A stretch of 64,000 nucleotides of DNA from Limibacter armeniacum (lineage in GTDB: Bacteria > Bacteroidota > Bacteroidia > Cytophagales > Flammeovirgaceae), in contig NZ_JBAJNO010000009.1 in assembly GCF_036880985.1 (NCBI RefSeq), positions 372,001 to 436,000 of the forward strand. The letters run 5' to 3'. The notes beneath the pieces were generated by a model. It was not told the origin of the DNA, searched no databases, and saw nothing but the letters and a program-made list of their open reading frames with translations. Each line of letters opens with the position of its first letter. The stretch's first letter is position 1. A program made the translations under genes and the position numbers. Of this stretch, positions 4,914-43,551 are shown piece by piece.

Positions 4914-6829
4914 TTACTTGGTATCCTCCTCAGCTGATTTTTCCAATTCTAAAATCAATGCTGTTTTGGCTGGAACTGTCACTTTATCCAAAGAGTAAGC
5001 TTTTCCGGAGATAACATCCTCTCCTCTGAAATAGCCATTTGTTTCCTCCTTGAACCTTGCCATATCAAGCTCCACATCCTTGTCATTATTACCTATAATG
5101 ACCATCACTTTCTCATTCTGGCTACTGCGGAAGTATACATAAACCTCATCTTGTGGCACCCAGTGCTTCAATTTTCCTTCACGGATAGCTTCGCTGTTCT
5201 TTCTCCAGTTCAGGATATTTTTAAGGTAATCGTAATACTCGTTTTCATCGGCAGTACGTCCTTCAGCTGTAAAAGCATCACGCTTGTCTCCATTCCACCC
5301 TCAGGGAAATCCTCACGGATATCACCATGGTCGCCTCTGTTAGCCATCAGTACTTCTGTACCATAGAAAATCTGAGGAATGCCACGTGTTGTCAACAGAA
5401 AGGCTGTTGCCATTTTCATACTTTCCAAATCCTTATTGAATGAACCAAATGCACGGTCTACATCATGGTTATCCATAAATATCTTATTCTGGATTGGGTT
5501 CTCGTACAAGAAATCTTGTGTCAACGCTGTATGCAGTTCATGCACACTTCTGTTATCTCGCCAAACCTTGTTGATTGCATCCCAAATAGGAAAATCAGAG
5601 ATACTCTCCAAATTGGTTACATAACCATCAGGGTTTGGTCTACCTTTTTTCCAGTATGATTCATAGACTGTTCCCCAAAGCCAAGTTTCACCTACGATAT
5701 AAAAATCCGGATATTCTTCTTTAACTGTTTTCACCCATTCAGACATCGTCTCTTTGTCGTTGTATGGGTATGTATCCATCCTAATCCCATCAATACCAGT
5801 ATACTCAATCCACCATTCAGACATCTGAATCAGGTATTTGGCAAGGTATGGGTTTGAGTTGTTCAAGTCAGGCATATGCCCATCAAACCAACCTTTTTCC
5901 ATAATGGTCTTGTCATACTCAGAAGCATTAGGGTCTGAGATTACTTCTCCTTTGAAGTTGGATCTTGTAAACGTGTCCCACTGGTGTACCCAATCTTCTG
6001 TTGGCAAATCAGCCATCCACCAGTGTTTATCCCCGATATGGTTAAACACCAAGTCCATCACAACTTTCATCCCACGCTTATGCGCCTCATCTACTAGACG
6101 CTTGTAATCTTCATTGGTACCGTGGCGTGGATCAGCCTTATAGAAATTGGTGATTGCATAACCGTGATAAGACCACTCCGGCTCATTATTTTCAAGGAAA
6201 GGCGTTAACCATACCGTCGTAATCCCCAGTTCCTGCAAATAATCCAGCTTTGAAATTACCCCCTCAATATCTCCACCATGTCTGCCTCCTCTGAAGTCAC
6301 GATCAGCAGCCTGTTTCATTTCCTTTACCGTATCATTGTCAGGGTTTCCATTCACAAATCGGTCAGGCATGATCAGGTACATCACATCTCCTGCATCCAA
6401 ACCCTGAGCCTTACCCGGATCATTGGATTTAGCTTTCAGTTCGTACTCATATGTCAAGGGTTTGCGTTTGCCAGTATCAAACTTCAGCAGAACCTTTCCT
6501 GGCTGTGCTCCTTTTAAATCTAATGTCAGAAAAAGATAATTCGGGTTGTCTTTAGTAACCGCTTCTACCACTTTCACTCCTGGGTAATCGACAGACACTT
6601 TTGAATTTCCAATATTCTGTCCATGAACCATCAGCATAACGGAAGTGTTTTTCATTCCTGCCCACCAGAAGGCTGGTTCTATTTTATCAATAGCAGTGGT
6701 ATTCTTTTTCAGTTCGCTAACACTGATTGTTGTATTATCAGCACTAACTGGGGTCGTTGCATGTAAACTCCCCGACATCAAACCGAATGAGAGTACGAGC
6801 GCTCCCACAGACATTGTTAGTTTGTTCAT
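4914..6829 (-). pseudogene. GH13 alpha-amylase/cyclomaltodextrinase-like protein, frameshifted
   Basis: Secreted or periplasmic glycoside hydrolase of family 13 with a signal peptide (residues 1-24), an N-terminal Ig-like domain as in cyclomaltodextrinase/neopullulanase, and a catalytic barrel. All four GH13 regions are present: DLVFNH (His264), GIRMD (nucleophile Asp352), VGETW (acid/base Glu381) and FMDNHD (Asp456). At about 5298-5303 the frame breaks: after DFP the reading frame gives EGGMETS and ends at 5210, whereas the -1 frame continues as GWNGDKRDAF through the C-terminal beta domain to 4914. Restoring a single G gives about 638 residues, the normal family size. It is either a recent inactivation or a sequencing error. 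The catalytic residues lie before the break, but a truncated form would lose the C-terminal sheet. Confidence 0.88.
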
Positions 6830-6928
6830 CTTTCCTTGAAATGTTGTTCACCTAAAATTTGATAGTTAAAATAGTCCAATTCACAATCCCTCAAAATGAC
6901 TATGCTTCCCAACAAGTAAAACACAGTT

Positions 6929-6944
6929 TTGCAACCCGTTGCAA
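6929..6944. promoter_or_regulatory. LacI-family operator upstream of the amylase gene
   Basis: TTGCAACCCGTTGCAA has 7-bp perfect arms around CC and the same length and shape as LacI/MalR-type operators (TTGCAAnCGnTTGCAA). It lies about 100 nt upstream of the amylase start, where repression or activation by a maltodextrin-responsive LacI-type regulator is expected. No such regulator gene is in the window. Confidence 0.5.
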
Positions 6945-7054
6945 GAAAATAAATTAACATTTTTTGGATTATACCATGTTATCATGAGTTTCATTAACTT
7001 TAATTCCTCCTAAAAAATTCCTGCATTTGGCATTGTTAATAATAGATCTATTCA

Positions 7055-7071
7055 TGAACTTCGGGAGTTCA
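7055..7071 (+). repeat. small hairpin before arsC
   Basis: TGAACT and AGTTCA are 6-bp perfect arms with a 5-nt loop, ending 29 nt before the arsC start. It could be a leader hairpin or an operator. Confidence 0.25.
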
Positions 7072-7099
7072 CACTGAAGACATAATTGTAAATATTCTT

Positions 7100-7441
7100 A
7101 TGAAGATTTTCCATAATCCACGTTGTACCAAAAGCAGGCAAACACTGCAACTGATTGAAGAAAAAGGGGCAGATGTAGAAATAGTGAAGTACTTGGATGA
7201 CACTCCTTCCAAAAGTGAGTTGAAGGAAGTATTGAAAAAACTAGGGATGCAACCTTCCCAAATTATCCGTAAAGGAGAAAGCATTTATAAGGAACAGTTT
7301 AAAGGCAAAGACCTTAGTGAAGATGAGTGGCTGGATGTACTGGTAAACAATCCCAAACTGATCGAGCGTCCAATTGTTGTAAAAGGAGACAAGGCTGTAA
7401 TAGGTAGACCACCTGAAAATGTCTTGAGCCTACTTGACTAA
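7100..7441 (+). CDS. arsC: ArsC/Spx family thioredoxin-fold protein (arsenate reductase-like)
   Basis: A 113-residue glutaredoxin-fold protein of the ArsC family. The N-terminal [13 protein letters not shown] holds the catalytic Cys (about residue 9). The ArsC Arg triad region is represented by IRKGE and by [17 protein letters not shown] near the C-terminus, which fits glutathione/glutaredoxin-linked arsenate reductase. The single-Cys CTKS pattern argues against a CxxC Spx regulator. No ars efflux genes are nearby, so the physiological substrate is open. An intrinsic terminator follows directly. Confidence 0.85.
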
Positions 7442-7445
7442 GCAA

Positions 7446-7484
7446 AAAACACCTAAAGTTAACACCAATACTTTAGGTGTTTTT
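7446..7484 (+). terminator. arsC terminator
   Basis: ACACCTAAAGT pairs with ACTTTAGGTGT and is followed by TTTT. It lies inside the unsupported 5' extension of the next gene, which argues for the downstream start of that gene. Confidence 0.85.
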
Positions 7485-7553
7485 ATTTTGTTACCTCCCT
7501 TTTGTATTTTAAAGTATTGCATTCCAAATTTTCTTCACCTTAACAACTTTAAA

Positions 7554-7874
7554 ATGCTAATCACCACCACAGAATCAATTGAAGGTAAACGCATAACACA
7601 TTACTACGGACTGGTTACGGGAGAAACAATTATCGGAGCCAACGTATTTAAGGACTTCTTTGCTGGAATCAGGGATATCGTTGGCGGACGTTCTGGCTCC
7701 TACGAAAAAGTTCTGCGAGAAGCCAAAGATGAAGCTGTAAAAGAAATGCAGGAAAAAGCGCAAAAAATGGGCGCTAATGCCGTCATCGGTATTGACCTAG
7801 ACTACGAGACAGTAGGACCTAATGGAGGTATGCTTATGGTAGCAGCCAGTGGCACTGCTGTCAAGGTAGAATAA
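7554..7874 (+). CDS. YbjQ/UPF0145 family protein
   Basis: A 106-residue protein of the YbjQ (heavy-metal-binding-domain, DUF74) family. Diagnostic blocks are [43 protein letters not shown] and the tail [18 protein letters not shown]. Family members form pentameric small proteins of unknown role; metal binding was proposed but is not established. The frame is open back to 7434, but the first 40 codons overlap the arsC terminator and have no family similarity, so I start at the ATG at 7554. Confidence 0.88.
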
Positions 7875-7903
7875 TATTTACACAAAAGAGGCTATTAAAT
7901 GAT

Positions 7904-7934
7904 ACGGTTGGGAAATTCTTCTCAACCGTTTTTA
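7904..7934 (+). terminator. terminator after ybjQ-like gene
   Basis: ACGGTTG and CAACCGT form a 7-bp stem (12-nt loop) followed by TTTTATTT. Confidence 0.7.
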
Positions 7935-8086
7935 TTTCCAATTCATCCAATTGGTTTACTATTATTATAATTATTTTGGAACAGTGTTGTAGTATATTTA
8001 TGTTACATCACCACAAACAACCTAACAAACAAACTGTTTCATATTAGTAAACAGCCATTTACTATCTGATTTTCTGCAATCTATCT

Positions 8087-9163
8087 ATGAAAAAGAAACT
8101 GACACTGCTTTTTATGATGCTATGCTGCACAAAGGGATTTTGTCAGCAAGCTGATCCTAATACCAAAAAGACCCAATCGCTTGTATTCCCACTGATCTAC
8201 TGCAAACCAGAATCCGGTTTTGCTTTTGGGGCTGGTGGTCGAATCTTCCTTATGAAACACCCAAACGTATACAACAACCGTTTTTCTGACATTACCTTTA
8301 TAGCCTCTTACACTACACAAGGGCAAATCAACCTCAATTTTGCTCCCACAATCTTCCTTAATGATGGAGACTATATTCTTGACCTTAAGTTCAAATACAA
8401 AAAAGCACCATTCAGCTTTTGGGGATTAGGTTCTGACAACCCTGACAATGCAGAAGAACAGTTCCTAATGAATGACTTCCTGATTAGGGCTGCCTTGCTA
8501 AAAAGAATGGGGAAAGATTCTTATGTAGGGATCGAATACCTTCACCAAAGTTACATCATCAACGAAGTGGAAGAAGGAGGTATTCTTGATGAGCAAGACA
8601 TAAATGGTGATGCAGGAGCTGCTGTTAATGGCCTAGGTTTCGTCTATCGCTATGACAGTCGAGACAATGACTCCGCTCCCAATTCAGGTGCTTATATAGA
8701 GTTCAAGAACCACGTACTTGAAAATGAACGAACCGAAACATGGTTTACGAAAAACTCCATTGATGTCCGAAAATACATTGGCATCAGCCCTAAAAGTGTT
8801 TTAGCTCTTCAAGGCTATGGAGAAGGCACTTTTGGAGACGCTCCGTTTCAAATGATGGCGTGGTATGGTGGTGAGGATCATGGGCGTGGTTATCACAATG
8901 GTAGAATGATCAATAACTTCTTGGCAATGGCGCGTGCAGAATATCGTTACCGCTTCTTACCAAGATGGGGCGCTGCCGTCTTTGGTGAAGTTGGTGGAGT
9001 TTCTGAAAACCTTCAGGATGTTCTCAAGCATGCTAACTTAAGTGCAGGTACAGGGCTTAGGTTTCAGCTTAGCAAAAAGTCACCAACCTTGTTAAGAGCT
9101 GACATTGGAGTTGGACAGGACGGCAGTACTGGTTTCTATTTGGGTATCAATGAGGTATTCTAA
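8087..9163 (+). CDS. Omp85-family (BamA/TamA-like) outer-membrane beta-barrel protein
   Basis: A 358-residue protein with a signal peptide (cleavage likely after GFCQ) and no POTRA domains, so only the surface-antigen (D15-type) barrel is present. Features are GFAFGAGGRIFL at the first strand, YRYDSRDND(x)nPNSGAY, the GRGY(x)nGR motif (DHGRGYHNGR, the conserved Arg-Gly-Tyr of the Omp85 lid loop), EYRYRFLP and a final strand ending in Phe (LGINEVF). Stand-alone POTRA-less barrels of this type are common in Bacteroidota and their cargo is not known. It is probably not the essential BamA. Confidence 0.85.
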   Translation: MKKKLTLLFMMLCCTKGFCQQADPNTKKTQSLVFPLIYCKPESGFAFGAGGRIFLMKHPNVYNNRFSDITFIASYTTQGQINLNFAPTIFLNDGDYILDLKFKYKKAPFSFWGLGSDNPDNAEEQFLMNDFLIRAALLKRMGKDSYVGIEYLHQSYIINEVEEGGILDEQDINGDAGAAVNGLGFVYRYDSRDNDSAPNSGAYIEFKNHVLENERTETWFTKNSIDVRKYIGISPKSVLALQGYGEGTFGDAPFQMMAWYGGEDHGRGYHNGRMINNFLAMARAEYRYRFLPRWGAAVFGEVGGVSENLQDVLKHANLSAGTGLRFQLSKKSPTLLRADIGVGQDGSTGFYLGINEVF

Positions 9164-9322
9164 TTATTGGAGGGTATAAGTAATCAATTATAATTGTACG
9201 ATTTGGTGAAAATTTTGTCTTTTATAAAAAGATAATGCAAATTTGCGGCTTCAACCAACAACAATAGCTGTCAGAAAACCAGACTGATAGCCTTGAAGAA
9301 TAGTCGAATTTTCATTATCAAC

Positions 9323-9535
9323 ATGAAAGACCTAAAAGCCGCTATCATTTCCTTTCTGATTGCCTTCGGATGCCTTTTGTCATACTTGTTTCTATGCGTT
9401 TCTGACAAAAGCTGGAGTGAGGAATCAATGAGAATGACGACCAATACCTTAGGGGGAGTCATTGTAGCCATTATCAGCTGGATGGCTATCTTCTTTCACC
9501 TGAAAAAAAGGTGTGAGGATACACAAGACAATTAA
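9323..9535 (+). CDS. small two-helix membrane protein, 70 aa
   Basis: Not recognised. Two hydrophobic segments (about residues 5-26 and 41-57) are separated by a charged loop with SWSEESMRMT; the short C-terminus is polar. A TTG at 9293 would add 10 residues, but the ATG at 9323 is preferred. It lies between the barrel protein and the convergent lycopene cyclase. Confidence 0.55.
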   Translation: MKDLKAAIISFLIAFGCLLSYLFLCVSDKSWSEESMRMTTNTLGGVIVAIISWMAIFFHLKKRCEDTQDN

Positions 9536-9542
9536 AGTCAAC

Positions 9543-10766
9543 TTACCACTTTCCTTTCTTCAATGTTCTTGTTACCAACCTTACAATTGACTTCATAAAC
9601 GGAGCTGATGGGACTGATGCCATAATTTTCAGTTCTTCCCAAAAGTTCGTTTGTTCATCCAAAAACCTCAGAAGCGTTGTAATCTGATTTTCCCTAAAAA
9701 GGGTGGTGAAAATTGAGGCAATACGACCACCATCACGCTTCATAATATCTAGCATCAGTGCATCATATAACTTAAACCGTTTTGGCAGACGTCGTAGTTG
9801 ACCAATACCCTGATGCCGAACCAATGCACTGACAATTAGCTTACAGTCCCGTTGTATCCTTAAAAAAGCATATCCTGTTGATGGCTTACACATCCCTCCT
9901 TTTGTACCAATATAGTAGACTGGTACACCTTGCTCCTGCTGTTTTAACGGTACATCCGTCATTGGAATCACGCCACTCTCTTTCTCTAAAATGGTAAATT
10001 CTGAAAGGTTTAAGCGCTTCGTTATGTAAGATTGCAACTGCTTCTTGTATGCGCTTTCGCCCAATAAATCAGTAGAGAAAACTGTAAACTCCACCAATGC
10101 TTCAGTTGTGGATGATGGAATTAAATAGACAAACCTAACCTCATTGTTTTGTGGAATCCTGAAGTCAAACATCTGCATCACTTCAGGGTCAAATGTTGGT
10201 GCACTTGTTTTTATTTTCCACCCTTCAAAATGCTGTAACAGTACATTATACTGATCTTTTAAGGGTTCGATCCATCCTTTACCAATAGCACTGTCAAATA
10301 CTTTCCCTCCTCTAAAACAACCTGACTCAGTATGTACTAACACTGTCTCATCACCTACCGCCTTGATATCAATTACCTTTTCATTTACAATACTGACATG
10401 CTCACATTCTGCTAGCGCATTTCTAACTTTCCTGTAAAAGTCAATACTGTCTATCTTGAAATAAGAAAACTTTCCAAGGTCAAATGTCTTTTGCATTTCA
10501 TCACTTAGAAAAGCTATTTTCTTCCACTTACCACTTACTTCACTTTCAAATGGAAAAGGCTTGTCAGTCCAGAAACACCATGTTTTGTCATTATCAGTTT
10601 TATCATCCGGCTCAATTATCATGATTTTTAGGTCTGAAAGCGTTTCTTCCTTGCTTATATGATAGGCTAAACTCAAGCCAGCACAACCGCCACCTACAAT
10701 AATGATATCGTAATACGCTTTGGATATAATATTTTCCTGATCTAACTGATTTTGTAATGCTTGCAT
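9543..10766 (-). CDS. crtY: lycopene cyclase family protein (CrtY/CrtL type)
   Basis: A flavoprotein that cyclises the psi-ends of lycopene to beta-rings, leading to beta-carotene and related pigments at the membrane. The N-terminal dinucleotide motif IIVGGGCAGLSLAYH (about residues 22-36) and the block DKTWCFWTDKPFP are typical of lycopene beta-cyclases; YIGTKGGMCKPSTGYAF is the conserved substrate-side motif. At 407 residues it is slightly longer than usual. It stands alone, with no crtBI or crtZ in the window. It converges with the small membrane gene, and no clear terminator lies between them. Confidence 0.88.
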   Translation of the reverse strand: MQALQNQLDQENIISKAYYDIIIVGGGCAGLSLAYHISKEETLSDLKIMIIEPDDKTDNDKTWCFWTDKPFPFESEVSGKWKKIAFLSDEMQKTFDLGKFSYFKIDSIDFYRKVRNALAECEHVSIVNEKVIDIKAVGDETVLVHTESGCFRGGKVFDSAIGKGWIEPLKDQYNVLLQHFEGWKIKTSAPTFDPEVMQMFDFRIPQNNEVRFVYLIPSSTTEALVEFTVFSTDLLGESAYKKQLQSYITKRLNLSEFTILEKESGVIPMTDVPLKQQEQGVPVYYIGTKGGMCKPSTGYAFLRIQRDCKLIVSALVRHQGIGQLRRLPKRFKLYDALMLDIMKRDGGRIASIFTTLFRENQITTLLRFLDEQTNFWEELKIMASVPSAPFMKSIVRLVTRTLKKGKW

Positions 10767-36424: not shown

Positions 36425-37681
36425 ATGCCTGCATTTCAATCAGTCGATCAACTACTCTTGGAACTTGGCAACAACAAGGTCCGAAGAATCATTGATATGC
36501 TGTTCAAACATCGGGAAGTTTCATTTGACCTGATGGTGGACATGCTGGATGGAGATGAGAAGTTTATCCGCAGTTTGATTGCCAAAGGAGTACTGGTTTC
36601 CGAAGATGAAGATAAGGTTCAGTTGGATGAGCAACTGATGTCGTTTCTTGAGGGATTCATGGAAATCCGCGATGATATCCAAAACTTTGAGATCGATGCC
36701 CGAATCAAGGGAATCAAAAGAAGAATCAGGCTCTACTTCCTTGAAGATGACATCTCTGAAAAAGACAAGTATGTTGACAAGATCAAAGATGAACTGAAAC
36801 GACTCGGAAAGGTCATCAGACGTAACGTGATTGACCTGAGCAGGCTGGTCATGCAGGATTATAAGACTGCTGACAATCCTGAAGTCCGTAAGCTTAAGAT
36901 TCAGAACCACAATGAAAAGGCCGATAAGCTGATTGAACTGATTGAGGCACTGGAAGGCATCCTTAAGGATGATTACTTCTTTACGGCTGTACAGGATGAA
37001 CAACTCAACCGTCTTGCCAATCACCTTAGGCATGATTATCTGAAACCTGCCCGAACAAACCTGCTCGAACTCAGTCAGGAAATTGTAGCGTTCATTAACC
37101 GCATTGTTTACCATCAGCGCATATTCAAGAAGCTGATGAAAATCAAGCGGCTGAGAGATCACTATGAGTTGGAAAAATACACCAATATCGAGGAAGTTCT
37201 CGCTCAGGACAGAACACTTTTCATGGACACTCGTCCACAGTTCAGGACTCGTCCGTCACTTGACCACTTAAGAAGTGACGAGGGGTATGACATGATCCTG
37301 AAATTGGCAGGCAAACAACAACACCGCTCCCAGAAACTGATAAAAGCAGGTGAGGTATTGGATCTTGACATGATCAATACCAAGCCAGTAATAGAACAGC
37401 GAATTAACTATGGTAGCATCAAGGATAAGTTTATCTCTTCAGATAAAGACCTTTTCTCATTTATAATGGACTTCCCATTTAAGGTTGAAACACCATTTGA
37501 AGAGCGAACCAAGGTTTTCTGTAAGATTGCCCTGCTCTATGAAAGTGAGATGGAGTTTTCTGCCGAAAAAGAAGACAGGCTACAGCTAAACGGAAAAGAG
37601 TTTGCTAAAGTAACGCCTAAAAAAGGGAATAAAAGCAAAAGTAAAGCAACAGAGCTAGTCATGGACAGTGACGTTAATTAA
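36425..37681 (+). CDS. MksF/JetA-like candidate kleisin subunit of an SMC complex
   Basis: A 418-residue, mostly helical, charged protein, first gene of a three-gene operon with a small MksE-like and a large SMC-like gene. The first 80 residues look like a winged helix (RRIIDMLFKHREVSFDLMVDML and SLIAKGVLVSEDEDKVQLD). A long helical middle (about 85-260) and a separate C-terminal domain (about 320-400, FSFIMDFPFKVETPFEERTKVFCKIALLYE) follow. This is the layout of MukF/MksF and JetA kleisins. I cannot see a diagnostic motif in the protein itself; the call rests on size, fold impression and context. The tail is Lys/Ser-rich. Confidence 0.6.
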   Translation: MPAFQSVDQLLLELGNNKVRRIIDMLFKHREVSFDLMVDMLDGDEKFIRSLIAKGVLVSEDEDKVQLDEQLMSFLEGFMEIRDDIQNFEIDARIKGIKRRIRLYFLEDDISEKDKYVDKIKDELKRLGKVIRRNVIDLSRLVMQDYKTADNPEVRKLKIQNHNEKADKLIELIEALEGILKDDYFFTAVQDEQLNRLANHLRHDYLKPARTNLLELSQEIVAFINRIVYHQRIFKKLMKIKRLRDHYELEKYTNIEEVLAQDRTLFMDTRPQFRTRPSLDHLRSDEGYDMILKLAGKQQHRSQKLIKAGEVLDLDMINTKPVIEQRINYGSIKDKFISSDKDLFSFIMDFPFKVETPFEERTKVFCKIALLYESEMEFSAEKEDRLQLNGKEFAKVTPKKGNKSKSKATELVMDSDVN

Positions 37682-37749
37682 CCGTCCAGTTATAGGTTTC
37701 TGATTCCTTTTGTTCAATATCTTATGTCTAGACTCTAGCATCTATTAAA

Positions 37750-38298
37750 ATGGATCATATCAAGAAATATATCAACAAGGCTTTTGAAGTAATGAGTGCT
37801 GGCCACTTTGTCAGTGCCAACAGTTCCAAAGCCGAAGTCCGCAAACTTTACGAGGTGATCGAACAGTACTTTGAAGACTTCTACCAATACTTCCAACCAC
37901 TTAATTTTGTCTTGGAAAGAGGAACAAACTACTTCTGTTTTTCCCGTGAACAACCTCGCCAAATGGTGGAACAAAAGGTAGAGCGATTTTACAAGTATAT
38001 TGACTACCTCGCATTTTTCCGTACTTATGACAACATGTTTTCAGAAGGTACACGCTTTACGTTAAGTGATATCGAGCAACGCTGCAAGACTAACACCGAC
38101 CTGCTAGAGATTCTGAATAGAATGAATTTCGACAAGGACACCATACGTGAACGGATCACCAAAATCATCGAGCAGATGACAAGAGACTCCTTCTTTGAAT
38201 GTGAAAATCCAGAAACTGAGAGCTACAAGGTACTCTCCTCTTACAACTATTTTGAAGAGATTATAGAAATGCTGGATGTAGACCAGGTCGAGAAGTGA
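37750..38298 (+). CDS. MukE/MksE/JetB-like small subunit of an SMC complex
   Basis: A 182-residue helical protein between the candidate kleisin gene (68-nt gap) and the SMC-like gene (107-nt gap). The sequence fits a KITE-type tandem winged-helix protein: an N-terminal domain with FEVMSAGHFVSANSSKAEVRKLYEVIEQYFEDFYQYFQPL, a beta-hairpin FVLERGTNYFCFSRE (the usual wing), then ERFYKYIDYLAFFRTYD and a C-terminal winged helix with TLSDIEQRCKTNTDLLEILNRM. In MukBEF/MksBEF and Wadjet this subunit dimerises on the kleisin and contacts DNA. Confidence 0.65.
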   Translation: MDHIKKYINKAFEVMSAGHFVSANSSKAEVRKLYEVIEQYFEDFYQYFQPLNFVLERGTNYFCFSREQPRQMVEQKVERFYKYIDYLAFFRTYDNMFSEGTRFTLSDIEQRCKTNTDLLEILNRMNFDKDTIRERITKIIEQMTRDSFFECENPETESYKVLSSYNYFEEIIEMLDVDQVEK

Positions 38299-38405
38299 TA
38301 AATAAGCCTGCCAGAAGTTTTTGAAAAAGACTTTCAAGTTTCAATCTCAGGCACACATAACTCACTATCCCTCAACCTAACGTCTAAACATACTAACTGA
38401 CAGAC

Positions 38406-41400
38406 ATGACAAACCAAGATAGATATCTCAAAAAACTGATATTCATCAACAGTGCTTCTCTTCCTTATTCGGAGGTTGAAGTTGAAGGCAATATTCACTT
38501 TGTAGGATCCAATGGTTTTGGTAAAACAACCGTATTGCGTGCGATCCTCTTCTTTTATAATCCGACCAGCAACAAGGCTGACTTAGGTATTCGAGAAAAT
38601 CAACGATCATTCTCTGATTACTACTTTGAACAGCTTAACTCTTATATCATCTACGAAGTAGCCCGTGAAGAGGGAGATTACTGTATCGTTTGCTATAAGC
38701 ACGGAGGCAGACTGCAATTCCGTATTCTGGACAGTGGTTATGACCCAAGCATTTTCATCACTGAAGAAAGACAGGTTCTTTTACCTGAAACTGTATGGGA
38801 AACATGTAACAATCGTGAAATCCGTCATTCTGAAGAACCAATCATCAAGTATGGTGACCTAAGAAATATCATCTATGGTTCTACCCTGTTGCGTCGTTAC
38901 CGCAACTATGGACTTCTTCAGGCTAGGTCTGGACAGGTGGCCAAACGTACCACCAGTATCCCTAAAGCCATTGCCAACATCTTCAAGACTTCTTCCCTCA
39001 ACTCTGACTATATCAAGAAATCAATTATTGACGCTGTCGTAGAGGAAGAGCAAAAACCTATTGACCTAACAGTCATTGAGCGACATCTGAAAAAATTCAG
39101 GGAAGAGCTGAATGCTTTGGAGACTTTTGAAAGACAAAGGGAAACTGCGGATGAACTGATTGAGCTATATTATGAGCTAATTGGTAAAGAAAAAGAGCTT
39201 GACAAGGTGGCAAACCTACTTGGTTTGGCTGCAAAAGCCACCGAAAAGCAACTTAAGCTTGACAAAAACAAGAGAGATCAACTTGAGATCACACTGCACG
39301 ATATTGAGCAGGCATTTGAGGTAAAGGCTCAAGAAAATGAAGAGGAGGTTCGAGAACTTAACCAACAGATTGGTGAACCTAAAAGTGCTCTCAAACAGAT
39401 CGAACAGCTCAAGAAACAATATGCTTCTATCTCGATTAATGGTGAAAAATATTCGATAGAAGAAATACTGGATAAAGTAGCTGAAGAAATAGCGATCAAG
39501 GATAAAATCACCAACCTTGAGGCCACACTCAGAACACTGACTGCCAAAGCTGAAGAAGTTCAGCAATTGTACACTGCTCAGGAAGCTCAATTGAAGGGTA
39601 ACTTTGAAAACTTCAAGCTAACTACAGAGCGAGAGTTAAACAATGCAAAGACTGAGTTCCATGAGAAAGCAGAGGCTATCCGCATAGAAAATGCTGAAAA
39701 GCAGAAGCAATCTACTGTACAGTTACAAAAAGACCTTGCTGCGGCTGAACAGGATGTAGACATCCGCAGGTTAAAAGTCAATGAATTACAGCTGGACAAA
39801 GAAAGGGCTAAGATTGGTTCTGAAGGAAATAGCGCAATAGAAATTCATCAGAAGAAAATCAGTGAAGAAGCGCAAAAGCTAACAGCCCTGAAAGGCGAGC
39901 ATGAGCTAAAAAAGGCAGCACTCAAAAACCAGAGGGTGCTTTTTGAAAGCAAGAAAGAAAGCCTTGAACAAAAGCTGAATACAGAAGAAAAAGTACTGCT
40001 ACAAGAGCGTAGTAACATTGAAGATAAGATCAACCTTCAACAAAAAAGATTGGAAGAATTTGAAGGATCACTTCAAGACTTCCTGAACCTGAATGTCGAG
40101 GGCTGGGAAAACACGATCGGAAAAGTCTGCCGTGAAGAGGTATTGTTATCGAAAGGGCTTATGCCAGAAATTTCTGATGACAGCAATAACATCTTTGGGA
40201 TCAAGCTAGACCTGAGCACCATCGATATCAAACCACAACAAGCTGATGATTTTAGATCTGAGTTAGAGAAACTGGAGAAAAAACTCACTAACTGGCATAA
40301 GAAACTGGATAGTTTCCAACAGGACCGTGAACTACAACTCAGGCAACTGACAGACACTTCCCGCCAGCAAGTACGCCAACTGGACGAAGAGGTACAGCAA
40401 GTCTATGCGCAACTGGCTAGCTCTGAAAATAAGGTCAAAAGACTTCACCTTGAGATGGAAGAATTGAAGGATTCTCACCAATCAAGCAAGGACACAGTCA
40501 TTCAACGCATAGAGGGTGACCTGCAAACAGCCTTTACTGACTTGGAAGCTTCCCGTGAAGTACTACAACAGTACAGGGACAAGCTCACTCAACAGCAAGA
40601 GACATTTGACAAGCTGAAAGAAGAGGCTATTGACAAGCTGAAGCTTTCGTTGGAACAGCAACAAGCAAAAGCTGCTGAAAACCTAGAAAAATACGAAGCT
40701 GAATTCAAGAAAAACCTTGATGAGCTGGAAGCGAACAGGAATGAACAATTGCACAGTTCAGGTGTGGACACTGATAAAGTAACTGCGACACAACGTCAAA
40801 TTTCAGCACTGAAAGCTACTTTAGAGTTAATAGAAGAGTGTAAAAATTGGGCTACACAGTATAAGGTACATGAGCCTCAGCTGTCCAAAGAGGCACATTA
40901 CAGCCAAATGCTAGAAGAGCTGGAAGAACGTCTTCAAATGCTGAAGTCCAAGTTTGAACAGGATAAGGCAAGGCATATCAGCGAAACAAAGTCACTAAGG
41001 GAAGAGCTTCAGCAAGTCTTAACTGCCATCAGGGATGGTGAGCGTGAGCTTTACGAAGATTTTGCATTCTTCAAGCAAGACCATACCAGTCCATATTTCC
41101 TTTATGCCCATTTGATTGATGAGCCAAAAGAAATGGATGAAGCTCCTGACACATTCAACTTGAAAGGTTTGGTGAATAAAATCAATACCTCATTCAAGGA
41201 GAAAAACCTAGTTTCGGGCAAGCTTCGGGATAAGACCAAAAAATTCACAGAGAAATTCCCTGAAAACAATATCCTGAATTTCCCGACTAAGTTCAGTTCA
41301 GTGGATGATAGTGAACAACGAGCTTTTATCAGCTCCTTGTTGATCCCATTTGTAAAAGAGGAAAGATTCATTCAGGTCCGAGAACAAATTGAGAGGCAGC

Positions 41401-42113
41401 ATGGAGGTATTATTCGAAATATTGCCAACGAAATTCAGGACTTATCCTCTGCTTCGTCCAAAATTTCGGAAACCATCAAGCAGATCAATGGCGATTTTGA
41501 AAACTCCAACTTTGTAGGTGTTGTCAAGTCCATACAGCTCGATTTTAGGAAGAATGACTCTCCTATTATCCGATTACTGAAAAGAGTCAAAGAGTTGGAA
41601 GGACAGAATGTATTTGGCGATCAGTCTGAAATTTTCAGGCCACAAAGTACAATGGACGTCAATAAGGATTCCAAAAAGCTATTGAACGAACTGATCAAGG
41701 CTATTGATGATGACAACCGTAAGACTATTTCTATTCAGGACAATTTCGATTTGCTTTTCCGTGTAAGGGAAAATAACAACGACACCAACTGGGTAGAAAA
41801 ACTTTCGAGTGTTGGTTCGGAAGGTACTGACATTCTGGTCAAGTCCATGATTTACATCACACTATTGAATGTCTTTAAGCAAAATGCATTCAAAAATGCC
41901 GATAATTACCTGCTACACTGTATGATTGATGAGGTAGGTAAACTATCTGACAGTTACCTGAGTGACTTGATTCAGTTTACTAATGACAAAAACATCAGGC
42001 TGATCTTTGGTTCACCAAATGAAAATGATCCACTGATCTACAACCACGTTTATAAAATCCACCGAGTTGCCGGAAACAAGGCACAAGTAGTCAAACTTGT
42101 TGGAGAAGCCTAA
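38406..42113 (+). CDS. SMC/MukB-like condensin ATPase (MksB/JetC-like)
   Basis: A 1235-residue SMC-type ATPase. The N-terminal head carries the Walker A GSNGFGKT (residues 34-41). Long coiled coils run from about 215 to 550 and 615 to 900, broken at about 552-615 by a compact block (DFLNLNVEGWENTIGKVCREEVLLSKGL) that is the likely hinge. The C-terminal head has a signature-like SSVGSEGT (about 1134-1141) in place of LSGGQ and a Walker B HCMIDEVGKL (Asp1175, Glu1176). Two halves of one ATPase head joined by a folded coil are typical of SMC/MukB/JetC proteins. With MksF- and MksE-like genes before it, it likely forms a loop-extruding condensin or a plasmid-acting complex. The operon ends at a strong terminator, with no fourth gene. 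Confidence 0.8.
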   Translation: MTNQDRYLKKLIFINSASLPYSEVEVEGNIHFVGSNGFGKTTVLRAILFFYNPTSNKADLGIRENQRSFSDYYFEQLNSYIIYEVAREEGDYCIVCYKHGGRLQFRILDSGYDPSIFITEERQVLLPETVWETCNNREIRHSEEPIIKYGDLRNIIYGSTLLRRYRNYGLLQARSGQVAKRTTSIPKAIANIFKTSSLNSDYIKKSIIDAVVEEEQKPIDLTVIERHLKKFREELNALETFERQRETADELIELYYELIGKEKELDKVANLLGLAAKATEKQLKLDKNKRDQLEITLHDIEQAFEVKAQENEEEVRELNQQIGEPKSALKQIEQLKKQYASISINGEKYSIEEILDKVAEEIAIKDKITNLEATLRTLTAKAEEVQQLYTAQEAQLKGNFENFKLTTERELNNAKTEFHEKAEAIRIENAEKQKQSTVQLQKDLAAAEQDVDIRRLKVNELQLDKERAKIGSEGNSAIEIHQKKISEEAQKLTALKGEHELKKAALKNQRVLFESKKESLEQKLNTEEKVLLQERSNIEDKINLQQKRLEEFEGSLQDFLNLNVEGWENTIGKVCREEVLLSKGLMPEISDDSNNIFGIKLDLSTIDIKPQQADDFRSELEKLEKKLTNWHKKLDSFQQDRELQLRQLTDTSRQQVRQLDEEVQQVYAQLASSENKVKRLHLEMEELKDSHQSSKDTVIQRIEGDLQTAFTDLEASREVLQQYRDKLTQQQETFDKLKEEAIDKLKLSLEQQQAKAAENLEKYEAEFKKNLDELEANRNEQLHSSGVDTDKVTATQRQISALKATLELIEECKNWATQYKVHEPQLSKEAHYSQMLEELEERLQMLKSKFEQDKARHISETKSLREELQQVLTAIRDGERELYEDFAFFKQDHTSPYFLYAHLIDEPKEMDEAPDTFNLKGLVNKINTSFKEKNLVSGKLRDKTKKFTEKFPENNILNFPTKFSSVDDSEQRAFISSLLIPFVKEERFIQVREQIERQHGGIIRNIANEIQDLSSASSKISETIKQINGDFENSNFVGVVKSIQLDFRKNDSPIIRLLKRVKELEGQNVFGDQSEIFRPQSTMDVNKDSKKLLNELIKAIDDDNRKTISIQDNFDLLFRVRENNNDTNWVEKLSSVGSEGTDILVKSMIYITLLNVFKQNAFKNADNYLLHCMIDEVGKLSDSYLSDLIQFTNDKNIRLIFGSPNENDPLIYNHVYKIHRVAGNKAQVVKLVGEA

Positions 42114-42119
42114 ACATAA

Positions 42120-42152
42120 AAGAGGCTGTCCTATCGATTAAGACAGCCTCTT
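42120..42152. terminator. bidirectional terminator after the SMC operon
   Basis: AAGAGGCTGTC and GACAGCCTCTT, 11-bp perfect stem with T-runs on both strands, between the SMC-like gene and the convergent peroxidase gene. Confidence 0.9.
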
Positions 42153-42174: not shown

Positions 42175-43551
42175 CTATTGCTCCATGCCTAGATCTTTTC
42201 TACTCTGCTCATCATTATTAGGGAAAGCATAACCTGACGGTAGTGTTGTTGGCACATATCGCTGAAGGTTATCATCATACAATGCCTCCTCCAAGAAAAT
42301 GACAATGGCAGCTACTTCATCCGCTGACAATCCCAGTGGGACAAATTTATCTGAAAGTTTTTCTGACGGAAGATCCTGCATTTGAGGAACTCCTTCATTC
42401 TTATATTTCACTACTTCATCTAGTGTATGTAAAGTACCTCCATGCCCAAAGAATTCCATATGCTTTAAGTTATATAACTGAGGAACCTTAAACTTATAAT
42501 TATCCTCTTCCTTTCCAGTAAACCCGCCTCTTCCTGCATCTTCTTTTGTAAAGTCAACTGCATTTTCCAATACTCCTTCTCCTCTCAAATCTCCCATTCC
42601 CAAGGCGTAAAAAGATTCCGTCACTTCCAAACTACTATTAGAGCTTAAAGCAGGTCCTGTATGACAGCCTGAACAACCCGCTTCTCCAAAAAACAGGATA
42701 GCACCTTCCTTTTGAGCAGGTGTCATAGCTCCCTTATCCCCTTTTAACCATTGCTGGAATGGTGATTTATTTGCAAGCAGTGTACGCTCATAAGCAGCCA
42801 TTGCCAACCCTGCCTCTATCTTGGTAAACTCTGTTTTATCAGGATAAGCCGCTTCAAAAAGCTCTTTATATCCCATTGTCAACAGCTCTTCATCTACACC
42901 AAGTCTATGTACATCCTGAGCAGCAATTGCCTGTGTCTCTACACCATCAAAGCCCAAAACATTTTTCTCTTTTGGTGTGCCTACAGTCCACTGTGCATCT
43001 GTACCAATATTTTGACCAAGTGCTCCAAACTGACCATTCCACAACATTTCTTTTTGATAAGCCACGTTTAAGGCAGTAGGTGAACGTTCTGGCTGTACAT
43101 CAACCATTGCTTTATCCATTTCACTGTCAGGAACTCTAGTTTCGCCATGGCTCCCAAAACCTACACCTCCTTCACCAATTCCCTGCCTAGCGCCTGCCTG
43201 AAAATCTGCGGCAACATGATGACAGCTTGCACAAGAGAAGGTATGTTTGTTGGATGTTATTTTAGGGTTAATCGCCATCGCTGTTTCATGAAATAGAAAC
43301 TTCCCTAAGGTCACTTTTTCGGCAGTTAGAGGGTTGTTCGGGTCAGCAGGAATCTTTGATAATTCAGCACTTTCAGGCATTGTAAAATACTCCAAAGCAG
43401 CAGATGCATCTGATTTTCCTGAAGCTGTTTGTAAAACCTCTACCAAGTCATTATCCAAGTTGGTGTCGTTTGTGTTGGTATCCTCACTATCGTCATTACA
43501 CCCAGCAAACACAAAGGCTGATAGGGCAAGTATCAAGTATAACTTTTTCAT
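42175..43551 (-). CDS. di-haem cytochrome c peroxidase/MauG family lipoprotein
   Basis: A 458-residue periplasmic protein with two CxxCH haem sites (SCASCHH and CSGCHTG), the pattern of bacterial cytochrome c peroxidases that reduce H2O2, or MauG-like oxidases. The signal ends in the lipobox FAGC followed by an Asp/Asn/Thr-rich linker, so it is lipid-anchored. It is longer than classic CCPs (about 330), mainly through the N-terminal linker region and loops. Motifs KVPQLYNLKHMEFFGHGGTLHTLDEVV and GLSADEVAAIVIFLEEAL are typical of the second haem domain. Confidence 0.9.
   Translation of the reverse strand: MKKLYLILALSAFVFAGCNDDSEDTNTNDTNLDNDLVEVLQTASGKSDASAALEYFTMPESAELSKIPADPNNPLTAEKVTLGKFLFHETAMAINPKITSNKHTFSCASCHHVAADFQAGARQGIGEGGVGFGSHGETRVPDSEMDKAMVDVQPERSPTALNVAYQKEMLWNGQFGALGQNIGTDAQWTVGTPKEKNVLGFDGVETQAIAAQDVHRLGVDEELLTMGYKELFEAAYPDKTEFTKIEAGLAMAAYERTLLANKSPFQQWLKGDKGAMTPAQKEGAILFFGEAGCSGCHTGPALSSNSSLEVTESFYALGMGDLRGEGVLENAVDFTKEDAGRGGFTGKEEDNYKFKVPQLYNLKHMEFFGHGGTLHTLDEVVKYKNEGVPQMQDLPSEKLSDKFVPLGLSADEVAAIVIFLEEALYDDNLQRYVPTTLPSGYAFPNNDEQSRKDLGMEQ

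Follow-up and report, generated by a model that had tools for sequence, protein, structure and literature searches.

The stretch of DNA analysed here, hereafter the window, comprises 64,000 nucleotides of Limibacter armeniacum (assembly GCF_036880985.1, contig NZ_JBAJNO010000009.1, positions 372,001-436,000, forward strand) and contains, at its positions 36,425-42,113, three genes, mksF-like (F), mksE (E) and mksB-like (B), that probably encode an MksBEF-type structural maintenance of chromosomes (SMC) complex, working without a nuclease and organising the large replicon or replicons of its host as a second condensin. A resident second condensin fits because the subunits are retained when their genes are unlinked, a nuclease-free copy is present in all nine genomes of genus g3, the ATPase motifs are conserved and no nuclease was found. 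A first-pass annotation of the window had argued that such a locus would suit chromosome organisation rather than plasmid cleavage, and as a predicted role this is supported by the lack of a nuclease match, the presence of Smc-ScpAB and the co-retention of the subunits.

In the proposed mechanism, B would dimerise via its hinge and close an ATPase head, F would act as the kleisin that bridges the B heads, and E, a KITE-type subunit, would bind F. The assembled MksFEB complex may then extrude or bridge DNA loops in an ATP-driven manner, organising or segregating the large replicon(s) of the host beside the ordinary Smc-ScpAB, rather than cutting plasmids. This would be a known kind of system and not a new one, since nuclease-free MksBEF has already been described as a chromosome organiser in Pseudomonas aeruginosa (PMC10586767, PMC7485682; these and all other papers are cited here from the excerpts available). 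On our best reading, what is new is the Bacteroidota lineage together with its nuclease-bearing sister. Among the papers listed by our literature search, which left most subscription literature outside, none dealt with such complexes in Bacteroidota, this lineage included, and none with DUF7281, a family that is discussed below.

The three genes and the identity of E and B

All three open reading frames (ORFs) lie where the first-pass annotation had put them, on the plus strand, and have no internal stops: the mksF-like gene (36,425-37,681, 418 aa), mksE (37,750-38,298, 182 aa) and the mksB-like gene (38,406-42,113, 1235 aa). With the base composition of the window, about 1e-29 ORFs of 1235 codons would be expected by chance. 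The annotation read the products as kleisin, KITE/MukE and SMC ATPase and found no motif in the first two that could be named with certainty. Profiles now establish E as MksE and B as a MukB/MksB-like protein, leaving F without a family. E matches Pfam PF21980 (MksE) at 7.8e-32 (111.3 bits, cut-off 27), as do all 18 aligned E members, and B matches PF12128 (DUF3584, MukB-like) at 7.2e-58 over residues 22-1218; a RecN/SbcC-type ATPase, against which the identity of B was to be checked, is not among its Pfam matches up to E 1.

More distant comparisons gave less. The E profile did not match E. coli MukE, which leaves a shared fold possible, and gave nothing convincing against the type I JetB of two related genomes (L133, L134); sequence searches of the PDB with E returned chance matches. 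The same search with B alone gave three matches, all due to chance, and with the B profile 117, of which the best 60 are mostly coiled-coil proteins, including SMC4, SMC6 and archaeal Smc. When a profile of 22 SMC subunits was compared by hhalign with E. coli MukB, 196 columns could be aligned to the C-terminal head of MukB at 22% identity, with a weak score (E 0.0013, probability only 18%); VGSEGTD is placed opposite ALSTGEA and MIDEVGKL opposite FLDEAARL. The JetC proteins of L133 and L134, whose operons PADLOC confirms as type I, carry an SGG-type signature (SGGQ in their two-sequence consensus). As MukB is co-linear with B including the signature, the B head looks closer to MukB than to type I JetC, at weak scores.

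The ATPase motifs of B are those named by the first-pass annotation: Walker A GSNGFGKTT at residues 34-42 (38,505-38,531), the ABC signature-like SSVGSEGT at residues 1134-1141 (41,805-41,828) and the end of Walker B, MIDE, at residues 1173-1176 (41,922-41,933), all on the plus strand. Residues G34, G39, K40, T42, G1137, S1138, G1140, T1141, D1175 and E1176 are invariant among the 22 aligned SMC subunits. The annotation had called the signature unusual; its sequence was read correctly and, judged from the alignment, it is the conserved form of this SMC family and not a peculiarity of the window protein. The putative hinge that had been placed at residues 552-615 coincides, in the alignment, with a conserved block at about 556-600 between variable stretches, in which L560, W567, G572, L580 and G598 are invariant, and these residues may mark the hinge.

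A locus without a nuclease in a genome with Smc-ScpAB

No nuclease gene adjoins the locus, in agreement with the first-pass annotation. The mksB-like gene is followed on the plus strand by a predicted intrinsic terminator (42,120-42,152), an RNA hairpin with the expected 11-bp outer stem and a subsequent T run (-18.8 kcal/mol, z -4.97), which a consensus terminator scan did not list. The next gene (42,175-43,551) lies, as had been noted, on the opposite strand, and its product is presumably a cytochrome c peroxidase, as which it reads.

The annotation had left room for an unlinked nuclease. Genome-wide profile searches were negative and thus yielded no JetD-like candidate: neither JetD_C, nor DUF7281, nor a profile built from ten sister nucleases (see below) matched in the genome of the window, other nuclease families lying outside these searches. 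Likewise, 14 of the 22 genomes with an MksE homologue (that of the window and 13 of its 21 relatives) match neither JetD_C nor the sister-nuclease profile. The six finds of this profile are genes of its own members and are thus no independent control. A diverged nuclease could be missed, since the Pfam model PF23947 missed one sister nuclease (G063) that the ten-sequence profile found. The proposed check for a canonical Smc-ScpAB was positive: Smc, ScpA and ScpB are all encoded in the genome of the window, and ScpA and ScpB occur in all 22 genomes with an MksE homologue.

Nuclease-bearing sister operons

A tree of 35 SMC rows falls into three groups with 100/100 support. Group I, which includes the window, has 15 rows and group II has seven, and no adjacent nuclease gene was seen in either; in two rows, L136 (genome G047) and L054 (G062), the contig ends less than 300 bases behind mksB, and genome searches with JetD_C and the sister profile were negative. 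Ten of the 13 rows of group III carry a short Toprim-like gene right behind mksB (L048-L053, L127, L129, L130 and L132; gap -4 to +12 bp). Its product of about 285 aa matches DUF7281 and, weakly, JetD, and contains invariant E-N-x-E-N-F and G-D-x-D motifs, which we take to be the acidic motifs of a Toprim domain. The rows without this fourth gene are Parabacteroides distasonis L128, the viral-collection contig L146 and L147, of the same class; all three sit inside the nuclease-bearing group, L146 and L147 next to the nuclease-bearing Phocaeicola L127, as if the nuclease were being lost, and a tblastn search for nuclease remnants in the three rows gave nothing convincing (the sole hit, in L146, had an E of 0.78). 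Not included in the tree were both halves of a split mksB (L058), two pieces of an interrupted SMC gene (L131) and a partial copy from G575. The tree requires three nuclease changes; because it is unrooted and MukB, tried as an outgroup, is too distant, it is neutral as to gain or loss.

We tentatively propose, at somewhat less than an even chance, that group III is a so far unnamed Bacteroidota Wadjet-like system with a DUF7281 Toprim-like nuclease of about 285 aa, whose nuclease-free sisters became resident chromosome-folding complexes more than once, their genes being free to drift apart. The sister operons, which PADLOC JetD models match weakly, point to a plasmid-defence variant. If so, complete nuclease-free MksFEB complexes with nuclease-keeping sisters, sometimes in the same genome, would constitute a natural experiment on how an SMC machine that cuts DNA turns into one that organises chromosomes. 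As nuclease-keeping sisters exist, comparison and experiment can test the proposed origin of MksBEF from JetABCD through loss of JetD (PMC10586767, in the excerpt available).

These sisters also bear on an unlikely alternative, in which the complex of the window is itself a Wadjet-like plasmid restriction system and draws on a nuclease that is encoded elsewhere or has escaped recognition. The Toprim-like gene of group III speaks for it, as does the restriction of the searches to JetD-like families, of which PF23947 missed the G063 nuclease; against it stand the negative searches of the genome of the window and the fact that groups I and II, 22 rows in all, showed no nuclease gene beside mksB. 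Moreover, the assembly of the window (G000) has seven smaller contigs of 18-381 kb, some of which may be plasmids. An N-terminal 'IF' of MksE, whose equivalence in place to the IFDR-like motif of JetB is a guess, points both ways: it is kept in 8/8 nuclease-free group II sequences, while 13 of the 15 group I rows have V or A in place of its 'I'. As a nuclease-docking marker it was rejected, since group II retains it without a nuclease.

Two further observations concern the surroundings of group III operons. Directly upstream of one nuclease-bearing operon lies a helicase-like gene of 1069 aa (L048:1388-4597; PADLOC MkoC, 9.8e-70). Contig L146 starts with its mksB, no nuclease gene behind it, and the genes that follow look phage-like to us and perhaps mark a prophage boundary.

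Distribution, scattered genes and selection

An MksE homologue was found in 22 of the 194 genomes of the order, that of the window included (26 places). Among 395 genomes sampled across the phylum there were three: that of the window, G532, and one weak match (3.8e-4) with neither F nor B nearby. An F homologue and B are present in 22/22 genomes holding an MksE homologue. Genus g3 has, besides its nuclease-free group I copies, a group III copy in four of nine genomes, one of which (the G575 copy mentioned above) consists of contig-end fragments without a full B. Two genomes (G081, G130) contain a complete type I Wadjet elsewhere in addition to the nuclease-free copy. A scan of viral contigs gave one SMC match and none for F. 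Two loci from the scan of named genomes with B (L035, L036) were rejected, as they have only residues 14-56 in common with B and yielded no homologue of F or E.

The nuclease-free genes do not all lie together in five genomes representing four lineages of groups I and II, and all three are nevertheless kept: F is apart from E-B in G172 and G081, and all three genes are apart in G047, G102 and G018. The mksE of G102 sits between aspartokinase-like and S41 peptidase genes. In L047 (10136-10705) and L046 (9922-10488) a lone mksE follows an aspartokinase-like gene with a 4-base overlap, while mksF and mksB lie at other sites of the genome. None of the eight group III lineages that could be judged, L146 not being among them, showed a scattered copy. 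The operon of the window is itself loosely spaced, with gaps of 68 bp (F-E) and 107 bp (E-B); in all other measurable rows E and B overlap or lie no more than 2 bp apart, and F-E gaps reach 191 bp in some relatives.

Ratios of nonsynonymous to synonymous substitution rates (dN/dS), counted for pairs with dS of 0.05-1.5 and with the near copies L041 and L149 left out, are 0.035, 0.016 and 0.034 for F, E and B of the nuclease-free g3 copies (3, 3 and 2 of 21 pairs). In nuclease-bearing copies the ratios for these three genes were 0.039-0.218, from one to three pairs each, usable pairs for F, E, B and the fourth gene being 3, 3, 3 and 1 of 3 in g3 group III, one of one each in g28 and none of one in Persicobacter.

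It is highly improbable that the locus is the remnant of a defence operon, in decay or out of use. The missing nuclease gene, the wide gaps in the window, the patchy distribution and the split mksB of L058 would suit such a remnant; the three open frames, the intact motifs, the purifying selection in the few measurable g3 pairs and the retention of all three subunits even where scattered argue for a maintained function. The L058 gene itself (6528-10215, in a group II genome) is read in two overlapping frames, owing to a frameshift or an assembly error. Another interrupted case is an SMC/MukE-like operon (L131:4977-11879) that is broken by an IS256-family insertion element and lies beside Tn7-like transposition genes on an Enterobacter hormaechei IncC plasmid.

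Evidence for and against the proposed complex

Several observations weigh against the interpretation of the locus as a resident chromosome organiser. The distribution is patchy, with 12 of the 18 genomes of the window's own family holding the complex, which is therefore dispensable over evolution, and Persicobacter carries its nuclease-free copy on large plasmids (380 and 859 kb). Scatter in four of ten nuclease-free and none of eight group III lineages, which we grouped and counted by hand, is not significant (one-sided Fisher 0.069). The closest SMC relative of B is only 38-40% identical, and its best PADLOC match is the phage-defence ATPase AriA (8.7e-6, residues 24-314), with JetC1 second. 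Neither small subunit has a confidently predicted fold, the single-sequence AlphaFold models being poor (mean predicted local distance difference test, pLDDT, 43 for E and 46 for F). F has no family over the cut-off in Pfam (best match 0.093) and none up to E 1 in NCBIfam or PADLOC, and its profile matches neither E. coli MukF nor two type I JetA proteins. Finally, excerpts of PMC10123090 describe the operon as mksFEBG, nuclease included, also in Pseudomonas species.

The retention of F alongside E and B in all 22 genomes fits a kleisin identity, and the models, poor as they are, add a suggestive likeness. Foldseek with the F model placed MukBEF, MukEF or MukF chains, taken as MukF by their length (only 1t98 is named so), at ranks 2, 4, 6, 9, 10 and 13 of 928, none below E 0.019; with the E model it gave 19 matches, none with an E below 1. 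In VIA-align, F residues ~79-258 of the low-confidence model lie on the MukF bundle with Z 12.3-13.0 (8 of 50 rows, 143-178 residues, root-mean-square deviation 2.6-7.3), syntaxin ranking above it (Z 14.7) and STAT and CorA bundles level with it. A kleisin fold of F is thus suggestive only. None of 30 F homologues matched a kleisin or JetA family up to E 0.1. A PDB sequence search with F gave 14-3-3 proteins and one other match, which were not taken as its family. In one group II genus (L057, L058, L059, L060) the F ORFs are longer, at 522-537 aa, and those of L057 and L059 have a repetitive charged C-terminal extension that is absent from the other aligned F.

The plasmid-borne Persicobacter copies also suit a quite unlikely reading, that the complex targets plasmids but does not cut them, and instead silences, compacts or limits the copy number of small circular DNA, and the JetABC core, rather than JetD, is credited with sensing DNA shape and size (PMC10586767, in the excerpt available). 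The 9/9 presence in g3 and the low dN/dS are more readily explained by a resident function than by defence, while patchiness elsewhere leaves some room for a plasmid role. A weaker idea is that members of the window's group occur preferentially where a genome has several large replicons. The second contigs of 1.4-2.2 Mb in three g3 genomes and the one 7.66-Mb contig plus 54 kb of G049, which has no mks, are compatible with a second chromosome, and Flammeovirga genomes are reported to have second chromosomes (PMC8653839, excerpt). For the genome of the window a second chromosome is not demonstrated: sampled GC skew runs from negative to positive in contig C9 and from positive to negative in C8, and would be balanced if both were parts of one chromosome of ~6.35 Mb. 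The last 210 bases of C9 are found again in C8, ~6 kb in from its end, a repeat that decides nothing.

Comparison with known systems

Among the closest systems are the operons of group III, whose F and B are 24-29% and whose E is 31-38% identical to those of the window; they differ by the fourth gene with a JetD-like C-terminus, which 10 of the 13 rows carry directly behind mksB. With Wadjet type I (JetABCD/MksBEFG) the window locus shares the gene order, A-B-C corresponding to F-E-B, and the family of its large subunit, since PADLOC describes JetC as DUF3584, MukB-like. It differs by the lack of JetD and by VGSEGT in place of the SGG-type signature of the L133 and L134 JetC, and PADLOC models matched poorly (JetC1 against B only 0.0027; JetA against F and JetB against E without a match up to E 1).

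The E. coli MukBEF complex has the same F-E-B order, and its MukB head is co-linear with that of B, including the unusual signature, at a weak score. However, MukB has 1486 aa against 1235 here, F and E are not detectably alike by sequence, and the genome of the window keeps Smc, ScpA and ScpB, whereas MukBEF is said, in the excerpt available, to replace Smc-ScpAB (PMC10586767).

A system akin to the predicted role is MksBEF of P. aeruginosa, in which kleisin, KITE and SMC subunits stand beside a resident Smc complex and, according to excerpts of PMC7485682, the combined loss of Smc, MksB and ParB is lethal. In Borrelia burgdorferi, MksB is reported to promote long-range chromosomal contacts (PMC10406323, excerpt). 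The likeness to P. aeruginosa is drawn from published descriptions: F of the window lineage is without a family match, and the PA14 operon is drawn with mksG in the available part of PMC10123090, unlike the window locus, which would carry out such a role with its three subunits F, E and B.

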